Assembly: GCA_016214955.1 (NCBI GenBank)
Contig: JACRMN010000022.1
Coordinates: 62,001-126,000, forward strand
Reading direction: 5' to 3'
DNA from: Deltaproteobacteria bacterium
Lineage (GTDB): Bacteria; Myxococcota; Myxococcia; Myxococcales; Anaeromyxobacteraceae
DNA: 64,000 bases
Below are positions 14,082-22,661 of this stretch, in pieces (position 1 is the first letter of the stretch; the number at the start of each line of letters is the position of its first letter). The notes below the pieces were generated by a model. That model saw only the letters and a list, made by a program, of their open reading frames with translations, was not told the DNA's origin and ran no database searches. The position numbers were made by a program, and so were the translations under genes.

Positions 14082-14158
<77 letters not shown>

Positions 14159-14162
14159 TCTG

Positions 14163-14213
14163 AAGGCCCCGACGTGGCTCCGGTCTCCGGAACGCGTCGG
14201 GGCCTTCTCTTTT
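14163..14213 (+). terminator. Rho-independent terminator after tRNA-Pro
   Basis: Perfect 12-base arms AAGGCCCCGACG (14163-14174) and CGTCGGGGCCTT (14195-14206), then CTCTTTT. Confidence 0.88.
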
Positions 14214-14642
14214 CGGGTCCGCGGGGCCCAGCAGCAAGGCAGCGGCAACGGGACGGGACTCCCGGGGCGGCAAGCCGAGAGTGAGCCAGTTCAGGCCGGC
14301 GCGCAGGTTCGGCCCCGCGGGCGGGCCTTGCGGTCTATCCGGCGCGCGTGTCTCGTCGCGGCCGCCTCTTCCTGGGCCCTGTCTCGTCGGCCTCCTCGAA
14401 CAGGGGCCTTCGCTCTTCCGGCCTCCGCCCCCAGCGCTCAATCCGCCGTCGCGCTGACCATGGACGACAACAGCGACGAGTGGAACCCTCGCCGTGAAGG
14501 ATGCGGAACCACCAGGGCGCCGCCGGTCGAGCCCGAGGGTCCTCGGCCAACGCTCGACGCGCTCGGCGGGAGGGAGCCGAGGCATCTCGCTCCGCGAGCT
14601 CGATGAGCGGTGTGGGGATTCCGCAGGACCCCGGGAGGGCAC
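14214..14642. other. Intergenic region before the serine protease gene
   Basis: No gene or RNA is recognisable in these 429 bases. Short direct repeats of TCTCGTCG occur near 14350 and 14382. The open frames are Arg/Pro-rich shadows. The upstream terminator makes this the likely promoter region of the protease gene, but no clear promoter hexamers were seen. Confidence 0.5.
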
Positions 14643-16043
14643 ATGTGGACGACTCGCGCGTGCAAGCTGGCATGTCTCGGCGGAGCCCTGGCCCTGGCGG
14701 CCTGTTCTGGCGGCGGCGACAGCCTGCCCCGAGGCCACACCATCGGCGGATCGGTCGCAGGCCTCTCCGGAAGCGGACTGGTGCTGGCCACGGGCGGGCA
14801 AGCGAACCTGCCGGTGTCGGCGGGTCAGGCAGCCTTCACCTTTGCGAGCGCGGTCCCGGCGGGGACGGCGTACGAGGTCACGGTCGCCACCCAGCCGAGC
14901 ACACCCCGGCAGACCTGCCTGGTGGTCGGTGGCAAAGGCACGGTGGGAGACGCGAACGTCACCGGCATCACCGTCATCTGCACTGCCGCCCCGGACGACT
15001 ACACGAGCATCACCACCGGGCCTCGCGCGGTGATCCAGCTCATCGATGGCCACGGGAGGTACTGCAGCGGCACGGCCTTCGTGGCCGCCCGGGTGCCAGC
15101 CGCCCCGGTCTACGTCCTCACCGCCGGCCACTGCTACGCCATCACCTTCGCCGATGAGGTGTTCGCCGACGTGGCCAACGATGCCGGGATCGCCGCCCAC
15201 TTCAACGGCTTCGTGGATGCACCGCCGGAGCAGCGCTTCTCCGTACCGGTGAGCACCGTCCGCTACTCGACGATGTGGGGTCAGGACCTCTCCCTGCTCG
15301 AGCTCGCGGCCACCCAGGCCGAGCTCTCGGCGCTCGGGGTCGAGCTGCCCACCCTGGCCGCGCAACCCCCGACCAGCGGAGTGGTCTTCACGTACGGCTA
15401 CCGCGACGACGACCCGCTCATGCGGCGCACGGACTGCGTGCTCGGCCCCCGTACCTGGCTCAAGGAGACCGTGTGGAGCTGGTGGGCGCCGTTCCGGGGA
15501 GAGTGCCCCACCACGTACATCCGGGCGGGCGCCAGCGGCTCCCCGGTCTTTGCCGTCGATACGAGCGAGTTCTTCGGTGTGGTGAACACCGTGAGCGAGG
15601 AGCTCTTGGCCCCGCTCTGCGAGCTGAACTACCCGTGCGAGCTGCGGCCCGTCGGCGCGGAGAACGTTCCACTCCGCGCGTACTTCCAGGACGCCACCCG
15701 GCTGCACGGCTGCTTCACTGCGGACGGGCTCTTCGACAGGGCGCTGTCCGAGTGCGGCCTGCCCGGCTCCACCTTCGGCCTGCAGGCGGCGGGGCAGGCC
15801 AACCAGCTCGCCGTCACCGCCAATACCGCTGGAGTCGCCGCCGGGGCCTACCGGTGGAAGGTGACGCCGCTCGCAACCTTCGACCCGGTCGACGCGGCAG
15901 GCTACAGCGCACCCAGCACCAGCCCGACCATCCTCTTCACGCCGCCCGCAGCGCGTTACGTGGTCTCGGCGGTGAGCGACACGGAGTACGCTCCTGCGGG
16001 GCTCGATCCGCTCGCGGTCCATGCGGTGATCAGGTGGCAATGA
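14643..16043 (+). CDS. Secreted trypsin-like serine protease lipoprotein
   Basis: The 466-residue product starts with a lipoprotein signal (MWTTRACKLACLGGALALAAC, lipid cysteine C21). Residues 35-112 form a beta-rich segment beginning IGGSVAGLSGSGLVL, a repeat often placed N-terminally in myxobacterial surface proteins. A chymotrypsin-fold protease domain follows, with H163 in LTAGHC, D215 in GQDLSLLEL and S298 in GASGSP, in the expected order. The last 90 residues are an extra beta domain. GGAGGG precedes the ATG. It is convergent with two LuxR-type regulators. Probably an active extracellular protease; substrate unknown. Confidence 0.82.
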   Translation: MWTTRACKLACLGGALALAACSGGGDSLPRGHTIGGSVAGLSGSGLVLATGGQANLPVSAGQAAFTFASAVPAGTAYEVTVATQPSTPRQTCLVVGGKGTVGDANVTGITVICTAAPDDYTSITTGPRAVIQLIDGHGRYCSGTAFVAARVPAAPVYVLTAGHCYAITFADEVFADVANDAGIAAHFNGFVDAPPEQRFSVPVSTVRYSTMWGQDLSLLELAATQAELSALGVELPTLAAQPPTSGVVFTYGYRDDDPLMRRTDCVLGPRTWLKETVWSWWAPFRGECPTTYIRAGASGSPVFAVDTSEFFGVVNTVSEELLAPLCELNYPCELRPVGAENVPLRAYFQDATRLHGCFTADGLFDRALSECGLPGSTFGLQAAGQANQLAVTANTAGVAAGAYRWKVTPLATFDPVDAAGYSAPSTSPTILFTPPAARYVVSAVSDTEYAPAGLDPLAVHAVIRWQ

Positions 16044-16101
16044 GGCAGCGTCGCGAGGAGGCACCACCGCCATGCAGCGAGAGGGATTCGGTCTGGAATC
16101 C

Positions 16102-17142
16102 CTAGGTGCGCCACCGCGCGTCAGCTCGTTGCTGTGAGGCGGCACCGCTCCCGATGCCCACCGCCCGCCCGAAGGCGAGCATCTCCGGCCTGGTGCGCAG
16201 CCCGAGCTTCCGCCTTGCCGAGGCGAGGTGGGCCGCCACCGTCGAGGGCGCGAGCCCGAGCAGGTAGGCCACGTACTTGTTGGAGTGCCCGAGCGCCGCG
16301 TGCGCAAGCACGCTGCGCTCCCGGTCGGTGAGGGCGCGCGGGTCGTACACCCGCGGCTCGTTGCGCCGGGCGAGGACGATGCGCCGCCCGTCTGACTCGC
16401 AGCGGTCGACGAGCGTCCAGCGCCCGTCGACGAGCCCGGTCCAGAGGTCGGCCGCCTCCTCCGGTGACGCTCGGCGCAGCGAGCCGCGCGCCCGCTCCAC
16501 CCGGCGCACGGCCGCGGCCAGGCTCTCGCGGACGTCGGCGCCGCGCGCCTCCGACGCCGCATGGTGCACCCGGCCGCCGGGGTCCAGCACTGCCTCGACC
16601 TCGGCGCCAGGTGACGGTGCCTGCCGGATCCGGTCGCGCAGGCGCAGCGCGGTGGTGAGGTGCGCGGAGAGGAGGCGGAGCCCGTGGACGGTGCGCGGCG
16701 GGAGGCGGCGCTGGCCGCGGAAGGGGATGCCGATGTCGAGGAGCGCCTGCCCGGGAGCCCCGGCGAGGATCCCCCACGAGTCGTCGTGGCCCTGGGAGGC
16801 GAAGAGGAGCCGGGTGAGCTGCTCCGCCAGCCATCCGCTGCGCCTGGCGCTGGCCAGCGCGCGCCTCACGACGGGCCAGGGGTGGAAGATGCGCCGGACC
16901 TGGCCGGCCGGGGCCCTGGCGAGGAGGCTGTCGAGCGTGGTGCTCCAGCTGCGATCGTGTCCGCGCTGGGCAGTGGCGCGCCCCCGCAGCCCTCCCGCGG
17001 GCGTTCCCTCGTGGATGCGCGCCGTGAGTCCTTCGCCGAGGTCGAGCGATGCGAGCGCCTCGAGCAGCCTCGAGAGCCACTCCTCGTCATCGCCGGCGGG
17101 CGCATAGCAGGCCTCTACGGCGGCGATGAGGTCGAAGGTCAC
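16102..17142 (-). CDS. LuxR-family transcriptional regulator with large N-terminal domain
   Basis: The 346-residue product ends in a LuxR-type helix-turn-helix (about residues 267-325) beginning ALTDRERSVLAHAALGHSNK, with recognition helix PSTVAAHLASARRKL. The N-terminal 260 residues resemble no domain I can name with confidence; they could be a GAF-like sensor, as in other stand-alone LuxR proteins. No receiver-type phosphorylation site is seen. Its GTG start overlaps the stop of the upstream regulator gene (GTGA at 17139-17142), so the two are translationally coupled. Confidence 0.75.
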   Translation of the reverse strand: MTFDLIAAVEACYAPAGDDEEWLSRLLEALASLDLGEGLTARIHEGTPAGGLRGRATAQRGHDRSWSTTLDSLLARAPAGQVRRIFHPWPVVRRALASARRSGWLAEQLTRLLFASQGHDDSWGILAGAPGQALLDIGIPFRGQRRLPPRTVHGLRLLSAHLTTALRLRDRIRQAPSPGAEVEAVLDPGGRVHHAASEARGADVRESLAAAVRRVERARGSLRRASPEEAADLWTGLVDGRWTLVDRCESDGRRIVLARRNEPRVYDPRALTDRERSVLAHAALGHSNKYVAYLLGLAPSTVAAHLASARRKLGLRTRPEMLAFGRAVGIGSGAASQQRADARWRT

Positions 17143-17462
17143 GGATCCTCGCGGCCGGCGGCGAGCCAGGCCTGCAGGGCCGCCCGGCCCTCGAGGCCGA
17201 GCTTGCGGTACACCGACGAGAGCTGCTTCGAGACCGTGTGGACGCCGCAGCCGCGCCGTCGCGCGATCTCCGCGTTCGACACGCCTGCACCGGCGAGCCC
17301 GGCCACGGTGCGCTCCGCCGCGGTCAGCACACTCGGAAGTGGCCGCGCCAGCGCCCGCTCTTCGAGGATCGCGTACTCCTCGCCGTCCGCAGCGAAGAAC
17401 CACGCCTCGCGCGATGGGAGGTCGTCGGCCGCTCGACCGTTTCGCCCAGTGCGTTCCGGCAC
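17139..17462 (-). CDS. Short LuxR-type DNA-binding protein
   Basis: This 107-residue protein is little more than a LuxR helix-turn-helix: LTAAERTVAGLAGAGVSNAE followed by the recognition helix VHTVSKQLSSVYRKLGL, with about 47 residues before it. It lacks any sensor or receiver domain. It is coupled by a four-base overlap to the larger LuxR protein, so the two may act together, perhaps as a heterodimer in which only one partner senses a signal. The GTG start has no strong Shine-Dalgarno; an ATG alternative is not available in frame. Confidence 0.7.
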   Translation of the reverse strand: MPERTGRNGRAADDLPSREAWFFAADGEEYAILEERALARPLPSVLTAAERTVAGLAGAGVSNAEIARRRGCGVHTVSKQLSSVYRKLGLEGRAALQAWLAAGREDP

Positions 17463-17765
17463 GCCTGTCCCCCTGAAGACTTCACGGTACCCATCCGGCT
17501 GGGGCTGCGGAGGTCACCGCCCGCTTTCAGCCCAAGCAGGCACCCTCGATGTGGGCTGCGACGCTTGGTCGCGTGTCGGGTGCGCCCAAAGCGTGGTCGC
17601 GCTGGCCATGGACAGACGCGGCGCCAGGGAGCCAGGATTCCCGGGAGAGGCGCATATTCACTAATGGTTGATTCATGGGACCGCCAGGGGCGGTATGAGT
17701 GCAGGCGAGGCAGTATGTTCCTCCGAGGCGGGAGCCGCTGGCGGTCCTTGTGCGGGGAGTCGGCG
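17463..17765. other. Divergent intergenic region between LuxR pair and LRR-like lipoprotein
   Basis: About 300 bases between divergent genes should hold both promoters. The only AT-rich stretch is near 17650-17685 (TATTCACTAATGGTTGATTC), a plausible promoter or regulator site. In-frame codons upstream of 17766 would allow a longer lipoprotein start (for example ATG at 17715), but the signal peptide argues for 17766. Confidence 0.45.
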
Positions 17766-18398
17766 ATGCGTCACACCGTGGCCTGTATGGGCCTGGTCAC
17801 CGCGTTCTCCATTGCGGGAGGGCTGGCCGGTTGCACGACCCAGTCGAGCGAGACGGGCCTCACCATCACCGATGCCTGCGACGTTGTTCAGGCAACCGAC
17901 CACGGCGACGGAACGTCGGCTGTCGTCTGTCTCGATGGGACGAAAGAGCTCGTCTGCACGAAACCCGACTGCAGCGGGATTGGCTACTGGTGGGGACTGA
18001 GGGGGACGGACTTCACGAGAGCGAACCTGCCCTTCCTCTCAGTGCTTCCCTTTGGGCCCGAGAAGTGGGGCACCGCGATCAGCGGGAACCTCTCACTGAA
18101 GAGCGTCAACCTGCCAGCGCTGACCACCGTGGCGAACCTGAGCATCCAGGGGAACCCCGCCCTGGCGAGCCTGAGCTTCCCTGCACTGACCTCGGCTGAC
18201 CTGCTGACCGTCGACGGCAACGCGGCCCTGGCGACGTTGAACGCCCCGAACTTCTCCAGGGTTGGATACGACCTGACGATCACCGGCAACCCATCTCTCC
18301 CGCAGTGTCGGGCCGAAGCGATCCTGGCTCAGCTCGTCGGATTCACGGGCACCGCGACCATCTCCGGCAACGACACCACGGTGAGCTGCACGCGGTAG
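17766..18398 (+). CDS. Lipoprotein with LRR/receptor-L-domain-like repeats
   Basis: The 210-residue product begins with a lipoprotein signal ending in LAGC (cysteine near residue 20). From about residue 95 it has repeated units such as NLSLKSVNLPALTTVANLSI, QGNPALASLSFPALTSADLL and DGNAALATLNAPNFSRVGYD, each of about 20-23 residues. This is the right-handed solenoid pattern of receptor L-domains and leucine-rich repeats. Two pairs of cysteines lie before the solenoid and one near each end. It is probably a surface binding protein. It lies between the divergent LuxR pair and the FG-GAP esterase gene. Confidence 0.68.
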   Translation: MRHTVACMGLVTAFSIAGGLAGCTTQSSETGLTITDACDVVQATDHGDGTSAVVCLDGTKELVCTKPDCSGIGYWWGLRGTDFTRANLPFLSVLPFGPEKWGTAISGNLSLKSVNLPALTTVANLSIQGNPALASLSFPALTSADLLTVDGNAALATLNAPNFSRVGYDLTITGNPSLPQCRAEAILAQLVGFTGTATISGNDTTVSCTR

Positions 18399-18430
18399 CT
18401 GTCCCCCTGCGCAGCGCTCTGGGAGGACTC

Positions 18431-20695
18431 ATGGCGCCATCTCGGGAGCACCAGCCGTCATCAGGCACGGTCCAGCGTCCGTTCCCCGTCCGCCGGACTC
18501 GCCCCGCCCCGCCCTGGCGGGCCCGGCCGGGCGCCCTCGCGCTCGGCTTCCTCCTGGCATGCGGCAGCGGCGAGAAGGCGAAGACCAGCCCCCCTTCGCT
18601 GCCCGTGGTAGTCCCCGCGGACACGAGCGGGCTTGCGCTCCTGCCAGCGGGCGGGGTCGCCGTGCGGTACGGCGCCGACCACACCACCGTCGCCGTCGGG
18701 GACCTGAATGGCGATGGTCGGCCGGATCTCGCGGTCGTCTACCACACGGCGAGCCGGGTCGGCGTGTTCCTCGGCCAGGTAGCCGGCACCTTCGCGGCGG
18801 CATCGGAGCTCACCACCGGGGCTCGCCCATGGAAGGTCGCGATGGGGGACTTCAACGGGGACGCGAGGCCCGACCTCGTCACCGCCAATGGTGAGGCGGG
18901 TTCCGTCAGCGTCTTCCTCGGAATCGGGGATGGTACCTTCGGAGCCAAGGCGGACTTCCCGGCCGGGGCCGACGCCGGTTGGGTGGAGGTCGCCGACTTC
19001 AATGGCGACGGGGCCCTCGACCTGGTCGTGGGCGGATCACCCTACGGGTTCGGCTCCTACTTGCTCACCGGATACCGGGGCCCCAGCACGGCCGGAGTCC
19101 TCCTGGGGAACGGTGACGGAACGTTCCGGGCCGTTGCCAGCGTGCTCACGGGCACGAGCCCAACCGTGGTGGCGGTCGGCGACCTCGACGGCGACGGGAA
19201 GCTCGACCTCGTCGTGGCGACGAGCGGCGCCGGCGGGCTGAGCGTGCTGATGGGCAGGGGGGATGGAACCTTCGCGAGCAAGGGAGTCCTCGCCTCCGGC
19301 CCGAGTCCGGTCACCGTGGCTCTCGGGGATCTCAACGGAGACGGGAGACTCGATGCGGTCACCACCGATCTGGTCTCCAGCACCTTGAGCGCCTTCATGG
19401 GAAAGGGCGACGGGACCTTCTCCCCTCGGGTGGACTACCAGACCCCCAGCGCTCCCGTGGGACTCACCATCGGGGACCTGGACGGCGACGGCCACGCAGA
19501 CGTCGCCTTCACCACGCTCGCTACCACAACCCGGGGCCCCTGGGAGATCAGCGTCTTCTTCGGGAAGGGCGATGGGACGTTCCGAGGCGCGGTCCGCTCC
19601 TCGCTGGGCGTCAATGATCCGTGCTTCGTGACCCTTGCTGACCTCGATGCCGACGGCCGGCCCGAGATCACCGCGGCGAACATGGGGTTCCTGGACTACC
19701 TCGACTACCCGGCCCGCTACTTCCCGGTTGGCTTCTACCGTGTGACAGGCGGAGCTCCGTTAACGGTCACCCCTCCGACTGCCGGCGGCGTCAGCCCGGG
19801 AGGCCGTCCTATCCGCTTCGCCGCGAGCTCGGGCGGCACGCCTCGCACCGTCAGCTGGAGCCTGTCGCCCGCCGTCGGAACGCTCTCCGCAAACTCCGGC
19901 ACCAGCGTGGAGTACACGCCGCCTGCCGAGCCTGCATCGCCCCCACAGGCGGTTGAGCTCGTCGCCGACGCTGGGAGTGAGCAGGTCAGGGTCGCCATCT
20001 TCCTGTCCACTCAGGTCGAGCGCCCACTCGGCAGCACCTCGGCCCCCAGCGGCTTCCTCGAGTACCTCCCGCCGGGCTATGACGACGGCCTGCCGCGGCC
20101 CCTGCTCGTCTTCCTCCAGGGGAGCGCAGGAAACGGGGACGGCGTGACGACGCTCTCGAGCAACCTCACGACATGGGGCGTCCCGGCCATGCTGGCCCAC
20201 GGGGGTTGGCCGGCCGAGTACCCCTTCGTCGTGCTGTCCCCGCAGCATGTCGGGCCCAGCTGGGCCCCGGCGGCCGAGCTGGAGGTCTTCCTCGACTGGG
20301 CGATGGCAAGCTACCGGGTCGACCCGAAGCAGGTGTACCTCACTGGCCTCTCCTGGGGAGCCTTCACGGCCTGGGACTACTTGAAGTCCTTCCGGGACTC
20401 CCGGGTGGCTGCGGCGGTCCTCATCGCGGGAGATCCCCGTATCGGCGCGACCTACGACGTGTGTCCGGTGGGCGCGGTCGCCATCTGGACCCTCCACGGC
20501 ACGTCGGACGACGCCGTTCCCGTTCAGGGTGAGCGCGACGCCATGAATCGCCTGATCGCCTGCCCTGCGCCCCCGCGCAGGGAAGCAATCCTCACGCTCA
20601 TCCCGGGCGGCAGCCACTACGTCTTCGATGACATCTACCTGGGCCGACTCGGGTACGACGTCTTCGGGTGGCTGCTGGCGCACCCGAAGCCCTGA
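18431..20695 (+). CDS. FG-GAP/VCBS-repeat lipoprotein fused to an alpha/beta-hydrolase (esterase)
   Basis: The 754-residue product has a lipoprotein-like signal ([11 protein letters not shown], near residue 45). Residues about 85-430 hold seven FG-GAP/VCBS repeats with calcium-binding loops such as [60 protein letters not shown] and [10 protein letters not shown], which predict an integrin-alpha-like beta-propeller. An Ig-like stretch follows. The last 200 residues are an esterase/PHB-depolymerase-like hydrolase with S641 in GLSWGA, D693 in GTSDDAV and H729 in GGSHYVF. The combination suggests a cell-surface enzyme held to its substrate by the propeller. The long Arg/Pro-rich N-terminus before the signal may mean the true start is further in. 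Confidence 0.75.
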
Positions 20696-20844
20696 AAGGT
20701 CTCGTCGAACACCGGGCAACCAGCCGCCGACCGAACGTCCCCGCGAACGTCCCCTCCGCACCGCCGCCGCGCCTTTCTTCCCTGACTGCGCGCCTCGCGG
20801 GCGCCCGGGGCGTGGCGCGGGCGATGCACAGGTGGCGCGTGAAG

Positions 20845-20861
20845 CCGATGCAATGCATCGG
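20845..20861. promoter_or_regulatory. Inverted repeat upstream of the LTXXQ gene
   Basis: CCGATGCA-A-TGCATCGG is a perfect 8-base inverted repeat with one central base, 43 bases before the ATG at 20905. The compact symmetry is typical of an operator for a dimeric regulator, although a stem-loop in the leader is also possible. Confidence 0.45.
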
Positions 20862-20904
20862 GGCGCGCCCGCCCACGGCGCCAGATCCCTCGGCCGGAGG
20901 AACC

Positions 20905-21783
20905 ATGAGACGACTTGGATGGAACGGATTCACCGTGATGGCAGCGCTGGGGGTCACCGCCTGCACCGCGTCCACGACCGCGGGCATGACCACCACCGAG
21001 GCCTGGCAGGCCGACGAAACGGCGGCCGGCGAGCTCCGCGAGCACCACCGGCACCACCACCGCGGCGGCGTCATGCAGTTCGTCGCCATGAGCCTCGACA
21101 CGCTGGGCCCCGACGACGCCAAGCGCCCCCAGGTCGAGCAGCTGCAGCGCGATCTTCACGGCTGCATGGCCCCCACCAGCGCCACCCACGGCAGGCTGCT
21201 CCAGGCCGTGGCCGAGGGCGTGGCCGCCGGCGCCATCGACGCGGTCCGGGTCGGCGCCGTCATCGCCGAGCTGGACCCGGCCGAGCTCGCCATCCAGGAG
21301 TGCGGGGCCGAGACGCTCAACCGGCTCCACGCCATCCTCTCGCCGTCCGAGCGGGCCGAGCTGACGGAGAAGGTGCAGGCGCACTGGGCGGTCTGGCGCG
21401 AGGTCAACCCCGACGGCGGCGCCACCGGAACCAGCCCGGGCGGCCGGCTTCCGGCGCTCACCGCCGAGCTGAGCCTCTCGCAGGACCAGGTCACGCGGAT
21501 CTCGGCGGCGCTCCAGCTGTCGGGCGAAGGGCGAGGCCGCCGCTTCGACCGCGCCCGCGCCGAAGGCGGCCTGAACGCCTTCGCCGAGGCCTTCGCGCGC
21601 GATCCGTTCGACGCCAGGGCGCTGCCCCGGGGCTCGAGCATGGGCCTGGCGCACCACGGCGCCTCCCGGATGGCCTCCTTCTACGAGACCGTGACCCCGC
21701 TCCTGACGCAGCCGCAGCGCGCGACCCTGGCCCAGCACCTCCGCGAGCACGCGAGCCACACCCCAACCCTCTCGCTCAACTAG
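20905..21783 (+). CDS. Periplasmic LTXXQ/CpxP-like lipoprotein, His-rich
   Basis: This 292-residue product has a lipoprotein signal ([13 protein letters not shown], cysteine near residue 20) and then a histidine cluster ([10 protein letters not shown], about residues 47-56). Two helical halves follow with CpxP/Spy-type features: segments like [20 protein letters not shown] and [18 protein letters not shown] match the LTXXQ pattern. Such proteins sense envelope stress or bind metals and unfolded proteins. CGGAGG lies 5 bases before the ATG. A small Tyr/Trp/Arg-rich secreted protein follows 9 bases downstream, probably in the same operon. Metal binding is inferred from the His cluster only. Confidence 0.68.
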
Positions 21784-21792
21784 AGGCCTCCC

Positions 21793-22131
21793 ATGACCCG
21801 AACGCTCCTGAAGACGCTGAAGCTCGCGCTGTGCACCGCAACCGTCGGCCTGGGCCTGGCCGCCGCCCCTCCCGCCATGGCGCAGGTCGAGGTCAGCATC
21901 ACCCCGCCCGCCTGGTACGTCGCCACCAACCGGCCCGTGTACTACGAGGGCCGCGCCAACTACTGGTACGGGAATCGCTGGCACTACCGGGAAGGGCGCA
22001 ACTGGCGCAGCTACCGCGACGAGCCCCGCTCCTTGCGCGACCGCCGCTGGGGCCGCGACCACCAGCGCTACTACGGCCGCGCCCACCGGGGCGGCTACCA
22101 CGACCACCAGGGCAACTACCAGCGGCGGTAG
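21793..22131 (+). CDS. Small secreted Tyr/Trp/Arg/His-rich protein
   Basis: The 112-residue product has a clear Sec signal peptide (residues 1-30, ending PPAMAQ). The mature 82 residues are extremely rich in Tyr, Trp, Arg and His, with motifs such as [29 protein letters not shown] and a basic tail [21 protein letters not shown]. No cysteine is left after the signal. The gene starts 9 bases after the LTXXQ gene, so the two probably work together in the envelope. Function unknown; an RNA-, polysaccharide- or metal-binding role is only a guess. Confidence 0.68.
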
Positions 22132-22442
22132 CACCGCCGCACGACGGCCGGGGCCGGGCAGCCGCCCGCGCCCCGGCCCGCAGCACCGGGTGGTGCGGCG
22201 CGCCTCCCCACCCCGGCAGGCCTCGCGTTCGAGCCTGCCGTCCTGGCCCGACGCGGCCGAGCCTCCCGCCCGCCGGTAGCCAAACCGCCGGAAGGCGAGT
22301 AGGGTGCGCCCCCTCGATGGTCGCCTGGGTTCCCGGTGACCGATCGCGCGGCCGCCGCTGGAATCCCAGCCGGCCGGAACCAGGGGCCGCGGCGCTCCGG
22401 TCGGATCCGGAGAGCCGCGGGCCCCGACACCGAAGGACGGGA
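22132..22442. other. Intergenic region before infA
   Basis: These 311 bases hold no convincing gene. GC-rich short inverted repeats are abundant just after the preceding stop codon (for example near 22150-22200) and could end the LTXXQ operon. The infA promoter should lie here but is not obvious. Confidence 0.45.
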
Positions 22443-22661
22443 ATGAGCGAGAAGGAAGCTGGCATCGAGGTGACGGGCAAGGTGGAAGAGGCGAGCGGCG
22501 GCATGTATCGCGTCAAGGTGGATCAGGGTCCAACGGTCCTCGCCTACGCCTCCGGGAAGATGAAGCGCTTCCACATCCGCATCATCACGGGCGACCGCGT
22601 CAAGGTGGAGCTGTCGCCGTACGACCTGACCCGCGGCCGCATCACCTACCGGGACAAGTAG
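22443..22661 (+). CDS. infA: Translation initiation factor IF-1
   Basis: The 72-residue product is a single S1/OB-fold protein that binds the ribosomal A site during initiation. The family pattern is clear: [20 protein letters not shown], then [20 protein letters not shown] and [18 protein letters not shown]. Length is exactly that of bacterial IF-1. It stands alone here, not in a ribosomal-protein operon. GC-rich arms (22661-22668 with 22688-22695) form a hairpin right after the stop. Confidence 0.94.

Follow-up and report, generated by a model that had tools for sequence, protein, structure and literature searches.

The 64,000-nucleotide stretch of Anaeromyxobacteraceae DNA analysed here (the window) carries, behind a tRNA-Pro gene, five neighbouring genes that include two LuxR-type regulators. 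We consider it probable that this block is accessory DNA in a variable slot, where a conserved LuxR pair, which may regulate jointly, lies beside a protease gene that would have arrived as separate cargo. The first-pass annotation had proposed a single module acquired by transfer. Its acquired or accessory character is supported by the tRNA-Pro slot, a near-empty site in the sister species G001, the codon use and the differing cargo of relatives, but the unity of the module is not. The features are as follows.

14082..14158, + strand: tRNA-Pro, anticodon GGG (ARAGORN); left edge of the variable slot, identical in sequence in G001
14159..22442, no strand: variable slot between tRNA-Pro and IF-1
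14643..16043, + strand: trypsin-like lipoprotein, converging on the LuxR genes; its N-terminal domain is common in myxobacterial secreted proteins
16102..17142, − strand: LuxR-type regulator (LuxR-large) with a GAF-like domain, a middle alpha/beta part and an HTH
17139..17462, − strand: HTH-only LuxR (LuxR-small), overlapping the larger LuxR gene by 4 bp
17766..18398, + strand: small repeat (LRR-like) lipoprotein, divergent from the LuxR pair; a further in-frame ATG is at 17715
18431..20695, + strand: lipoprotein with FG-GAP repeats and an alpha/beta-hydrolase esterase domain
20905..21783, + strand: Spy/Metal_resist-like envelope protein
21793..22131, + strand: small secreted basic protein, no Pfam hit
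22443..22661, + strand: IF-1 (translation initiation factor), second copy; right edge, common to G001

A variable slot behind tRNA-Pro(GGG)

In G001, which belongs to the same genus, an isochorismatase-like gene, tRNA-Pro and IF-1 follow one another directly. The distance from tRNA-Pro to IF-1 is 64 bp there vs 8284 bp in the window, so that a close relative carries a near-empty site, a difference that would fit either gain here or loss in G001. In the alignment of the two, homology runs through the tRNA end and resumes shortly 5' of IF-1, and the IF-1 of the window shares 97% identity with the one at this site in G001. Both G000 and G001 also have one further IF-1 copy elsewhere; the G002 copy and the other G001 copy align with the region of the other copy in G000. 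To the left of tRNA-Pro lie TyrRS-like, FtsJ-like, ferredoxin-like, TPP enzyme and isochorismatase-like genes, which are grouped again in relatives, with some of them uncalled at some loci. Synteny with G001 is also broken to the right of IF-1, so the variability on that side exceeds the block. MsrP was considered as a right flank and rejected, being distant from the isochorismatase-like gene in the complete genomes G003 and G004.

Behind tRNA-Pro the cargo differs in G002, G004, G008, G009 and G010. The BREX genes PglZ, BrxD and BrxHI lie near the same tRNA in G004 (L143 1-7040), and a tyrosine integrase (Phage_integrase, E 1.8e-14) follows tRNA-Pro(GGG) in G008. No DNA similarity was detected at E 1e-3 between the block and the slot regions from ten relatives. 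Because the G001 site is near-empty and unrelated genes stand behind tRNA-Pro in the other relatives, we regard the block as accessory cargo. The slot itself is mosaic, as the Spy-like gene (20905) and the small gene (21793) are nearer to the backbone in codon use.

The G008 locus (L153 3147-5043) also contains a small HTH gene, and its called integrase ORF overlaps the tRNA on the opposite strand.

No integrase is present among the called genes between tRNA-Pro and IF-1 in the window, and we therefore make no claim of a mobile element. A search at the far edge in the window for a direct repeat matching the 3' end of the tRNA found none; with neither an integrase nor a duplicated tRNA 3' end, no recent site-specific integration is visible. 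Rapid gene turnover at tRNA-associated integration hotspots and genomic islands is described in PMC5635113. The present slot resembles such islands in its variable cargo by a tRNA beside conserved genes and in the G008 integrase at the same tRNA. Unlike them, it is small and has neither an integrase nor a flanking direct repeat in the window.

Codon use and the ancestry of the block

The looser codon choice and GC bias remarked on earlier were borne out. GC3 is 0.887 for the protease gene, 0.919 for LuxR-large, 0.852 for LuxR-small, 0.846 for the LRR-like gene and 0.858 for the FG-GAP gene, vs an own-genome background of 0.970 +/- 0.023 (331 sampled genes), and all five genes fall at or below the 2.4th percentile. 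The background came from 400 kb of sampled sequence of the same genome, in which genes were called with a home-made program biased towards high GC3, so that the low tail of the background is somewhat understated. In a caller-free check, 14159-20700 had a GC content of 70.9%, the 3.5th percentile of same-length windows. LuxR genes of the same family in relatives, at the loci examined, are also comparatively low in GC3 (0.84-0.93); codon use alone therefore does not show that the five genes share a single event.

This last observation would also suit an ancestral block in the genus that was deleted in G001, with the deviating codons reflecting weak expression and fast evolution of envelope genes and regulators rather than transfer. 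The nearest relative of the FG-GAP/esterase gene is indeed in the same genus, and the lack of an integrase and att repeat fits as well. However, the Spy-like protein has no match in any of 24 relatives, other block genes are missing from relatives or located elsewhere, and in the gene tree the window LuxR groups with those of G014 and G010 (other genera) rather than with that of same-genus G002. We judge ancestry followed by loss to be quite unlikely. The LuxR tree, taken by itself, would fit transfer or paralogy alike.

A LuxR pair conserved as a two-gene unit

The reading of 16102-17462 as a LuxR pair, with one member devoid of a sensor, holds with small corrections to the gene calls. Both genes have GerE hits over the curated cut-off (E 4e-12 for the larger and E 5e-8 for the smaller). 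An AlphaFold2 model of LuxR-large, built with 49 sequences, has a mean pLDDT of 86 and resolves the N-terminal domain, the middle alpha/beta part and the HTH. In this model, residues 3-175 adopt a GAF fold (Z up to 14.0 over 154 aligned residues, at an rmsd of 2.8 A); the middle part was barely covered by the fold search. Among the fold matches, GAF domains were the best and whole AHL receptors matched at low TM-score; Pfam hit no AHL autoinducer-binding domain in the LuxR genes at E up to 1. The GAF domain also matched phytochromes, which was read as a likeness of fold only, and a bilin is not claimed. PMC7862692 discusses myxobacterial LuxR receptors of the AHL type.

At E 1e-8, 13 of 79 genomes, with the own genome counted, contain relatives of LuxR-large. 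A scan of named genomes yielded 59 LuxR loci, mostly in Myxococcota, with some in Pseudomonadota and one in Nitrospirales. A same-strand HTH-only gene adjoins the LuxR gene at 42 of 58 loci, other hits numbering 8 in 744 kb. Its usual position is upstream at Anaeromyxobacter-type loci and downstream at the others, an order that is clustered on the tree, yet has switched several times. The neighbours of the pair are diverse across loci. The GAF-LuxR and HTH-only genes thus form a conserved two-gene unit that recurs in unrelated neighbourhoods.

In G002 the pair also stands behind a tRNA pair (Val, Asp), together with a secreted protein (L100 3258-5635). The same Val/Asp slot in G001 (L296 2984-6720) holds, as judged by eye from the sequence, genes for a catalase-peroxidase-like protein and a LysR-type regulator. 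Within the family, 2 of about 10 LuxR-pair loci are near a tRNA, which may be chance.

Similar secreted proteins of 164-176 residues occur near the LuxR pair in G000:C12, G002 and G015. Those at L100 3662-4156, L102 1758-2261 and L105 7509-8039 end in TRSKISYKLP, TRAKISYKLP and TRGKGSYRLP. None of this type was noticed, by eye, in the gene list of the window block.

Lipoproteins and predicted protease of the block

The secreted protease said to converge on the regulators is a lipoprotein with a predicted trypsin-like domain. The His-Asp-Ser motifs TAGHC, DLSLLEL and GASGSP are readable in it, and Trypsin_2 scores just below the curated cut-off (E 1.3e-5; 26.4 vs 27.6 bits). At the cut-off used, matches in relatives arise mainly through its N-terminal domain, and the protease domain, searched in a 195-genome phylum set, matches nothing in the 194 genomes other than its own.

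For the small divergent gene the assignment as a lipoprotein, the repeats (about 22 residues each) and the orientation stand, and the LRR label is weakly supported. No Pfam profile, LRR included, hits the protein; its single-sequence model has regularly spaced strands at low confidence (mean pLDDT 43), and relatives match the repeat and C-terminal part only.

The FG-GAP/esterase lipoprotein was recovered as described, with its start more likely at 18431 than at 18305. A lipobox is followed by about 7 FG-GAP repeats and then by an alpha/beta hydrolase, in which the motifs GLSWG, HGTSDD and GGSHY are present. The esterase domain (residues 497-751) matches the phospholipase/carboxylesterase of PDB 4q82 (E 4e-44); unlike 4q82, it is the C-terminal partner of FG-GAP repeats in a lipoprotein fusion. 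G002 has one extended relative and G015 has a relative of the esterase part; many further matches cover the FG-GAP repeats only.

These data bear on the proposal that the block was acquired as a unit for signal-controlled surface degradation or predation, with the LuxR pair switching on the lipoprotein, esterase and protease together. The arrangement is compact with a divergent promoter region, three of the products are predicted lipoproteins, two of them with hydrolase domains, and the codon deviation is common to all five genes. Against this, the LuxR pair and the FG-GAP/esterase gene are on different contigs in both G002 and G015, the kind of separation in relatives that the first-pass annotation had named as refuting its proposal. 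Conserved synteny did not appear, as no searched relative has the full set together. Secreted genes, called by a home-made signal-peptide heuristic, are not significantly enriched beside LuxR loci (22% vs 17% further away; Fisher p 0.25). A shared dyad motif upstream of the LuxR pairs was no more frequent than in shuffled sequence, by a single simple word-count method on eight sequences, which yielded no binding site. We therefore consider a single module unlikely.

Proposed regulation and significance

For the accessory block with its conserved LuxR pair, domain content and gene order suggest the following. The GAF domain of LuxR-large would bind a small ligand, and the overlapping LuxR genes would be co-translated. 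The two proteins may act jointly on DNA and regulate their own expression, and possibly control the divergent genes for the lipoprotein and the FG-GAP/esterase; the products of these two genes would be attached to the envelope.

LuxR-large shares the GerE HTH and GAF fold of LuxR-type factors with a GAF-like sensor, but differs from them in the adjoining HTH-only partner, which looks obligate. VisN and VisR of rhizobia are adjacent paired LuxR-type regulators that are thought to act jointly. The present genes likewise adjoin each other, and they resemble the VisN and VisR models at the HTH level only. Unlike VisN/VisR, one partner here has no sensor domain, and the joint action of the pair is our proposal.

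A limited literature search found no description of a GAF-LuxR and HTH-only pair, which hints weakly at novelty. It is conceivable, though doubtful, that the pair is an undescribed switch widespread in Myxococcota, in which the sensorless protein pairs on DNA with the one that senses a ligand. Such a switch would travel from one tRNA-side slot to another, its secreted targets differing between slots. The analysis brings to light a widely conserved two-gene LuxR unit and provides a concrete accessory-gene slot behind tRNA-Pro(GGG) in Anaeromyxobacter-type genomes.
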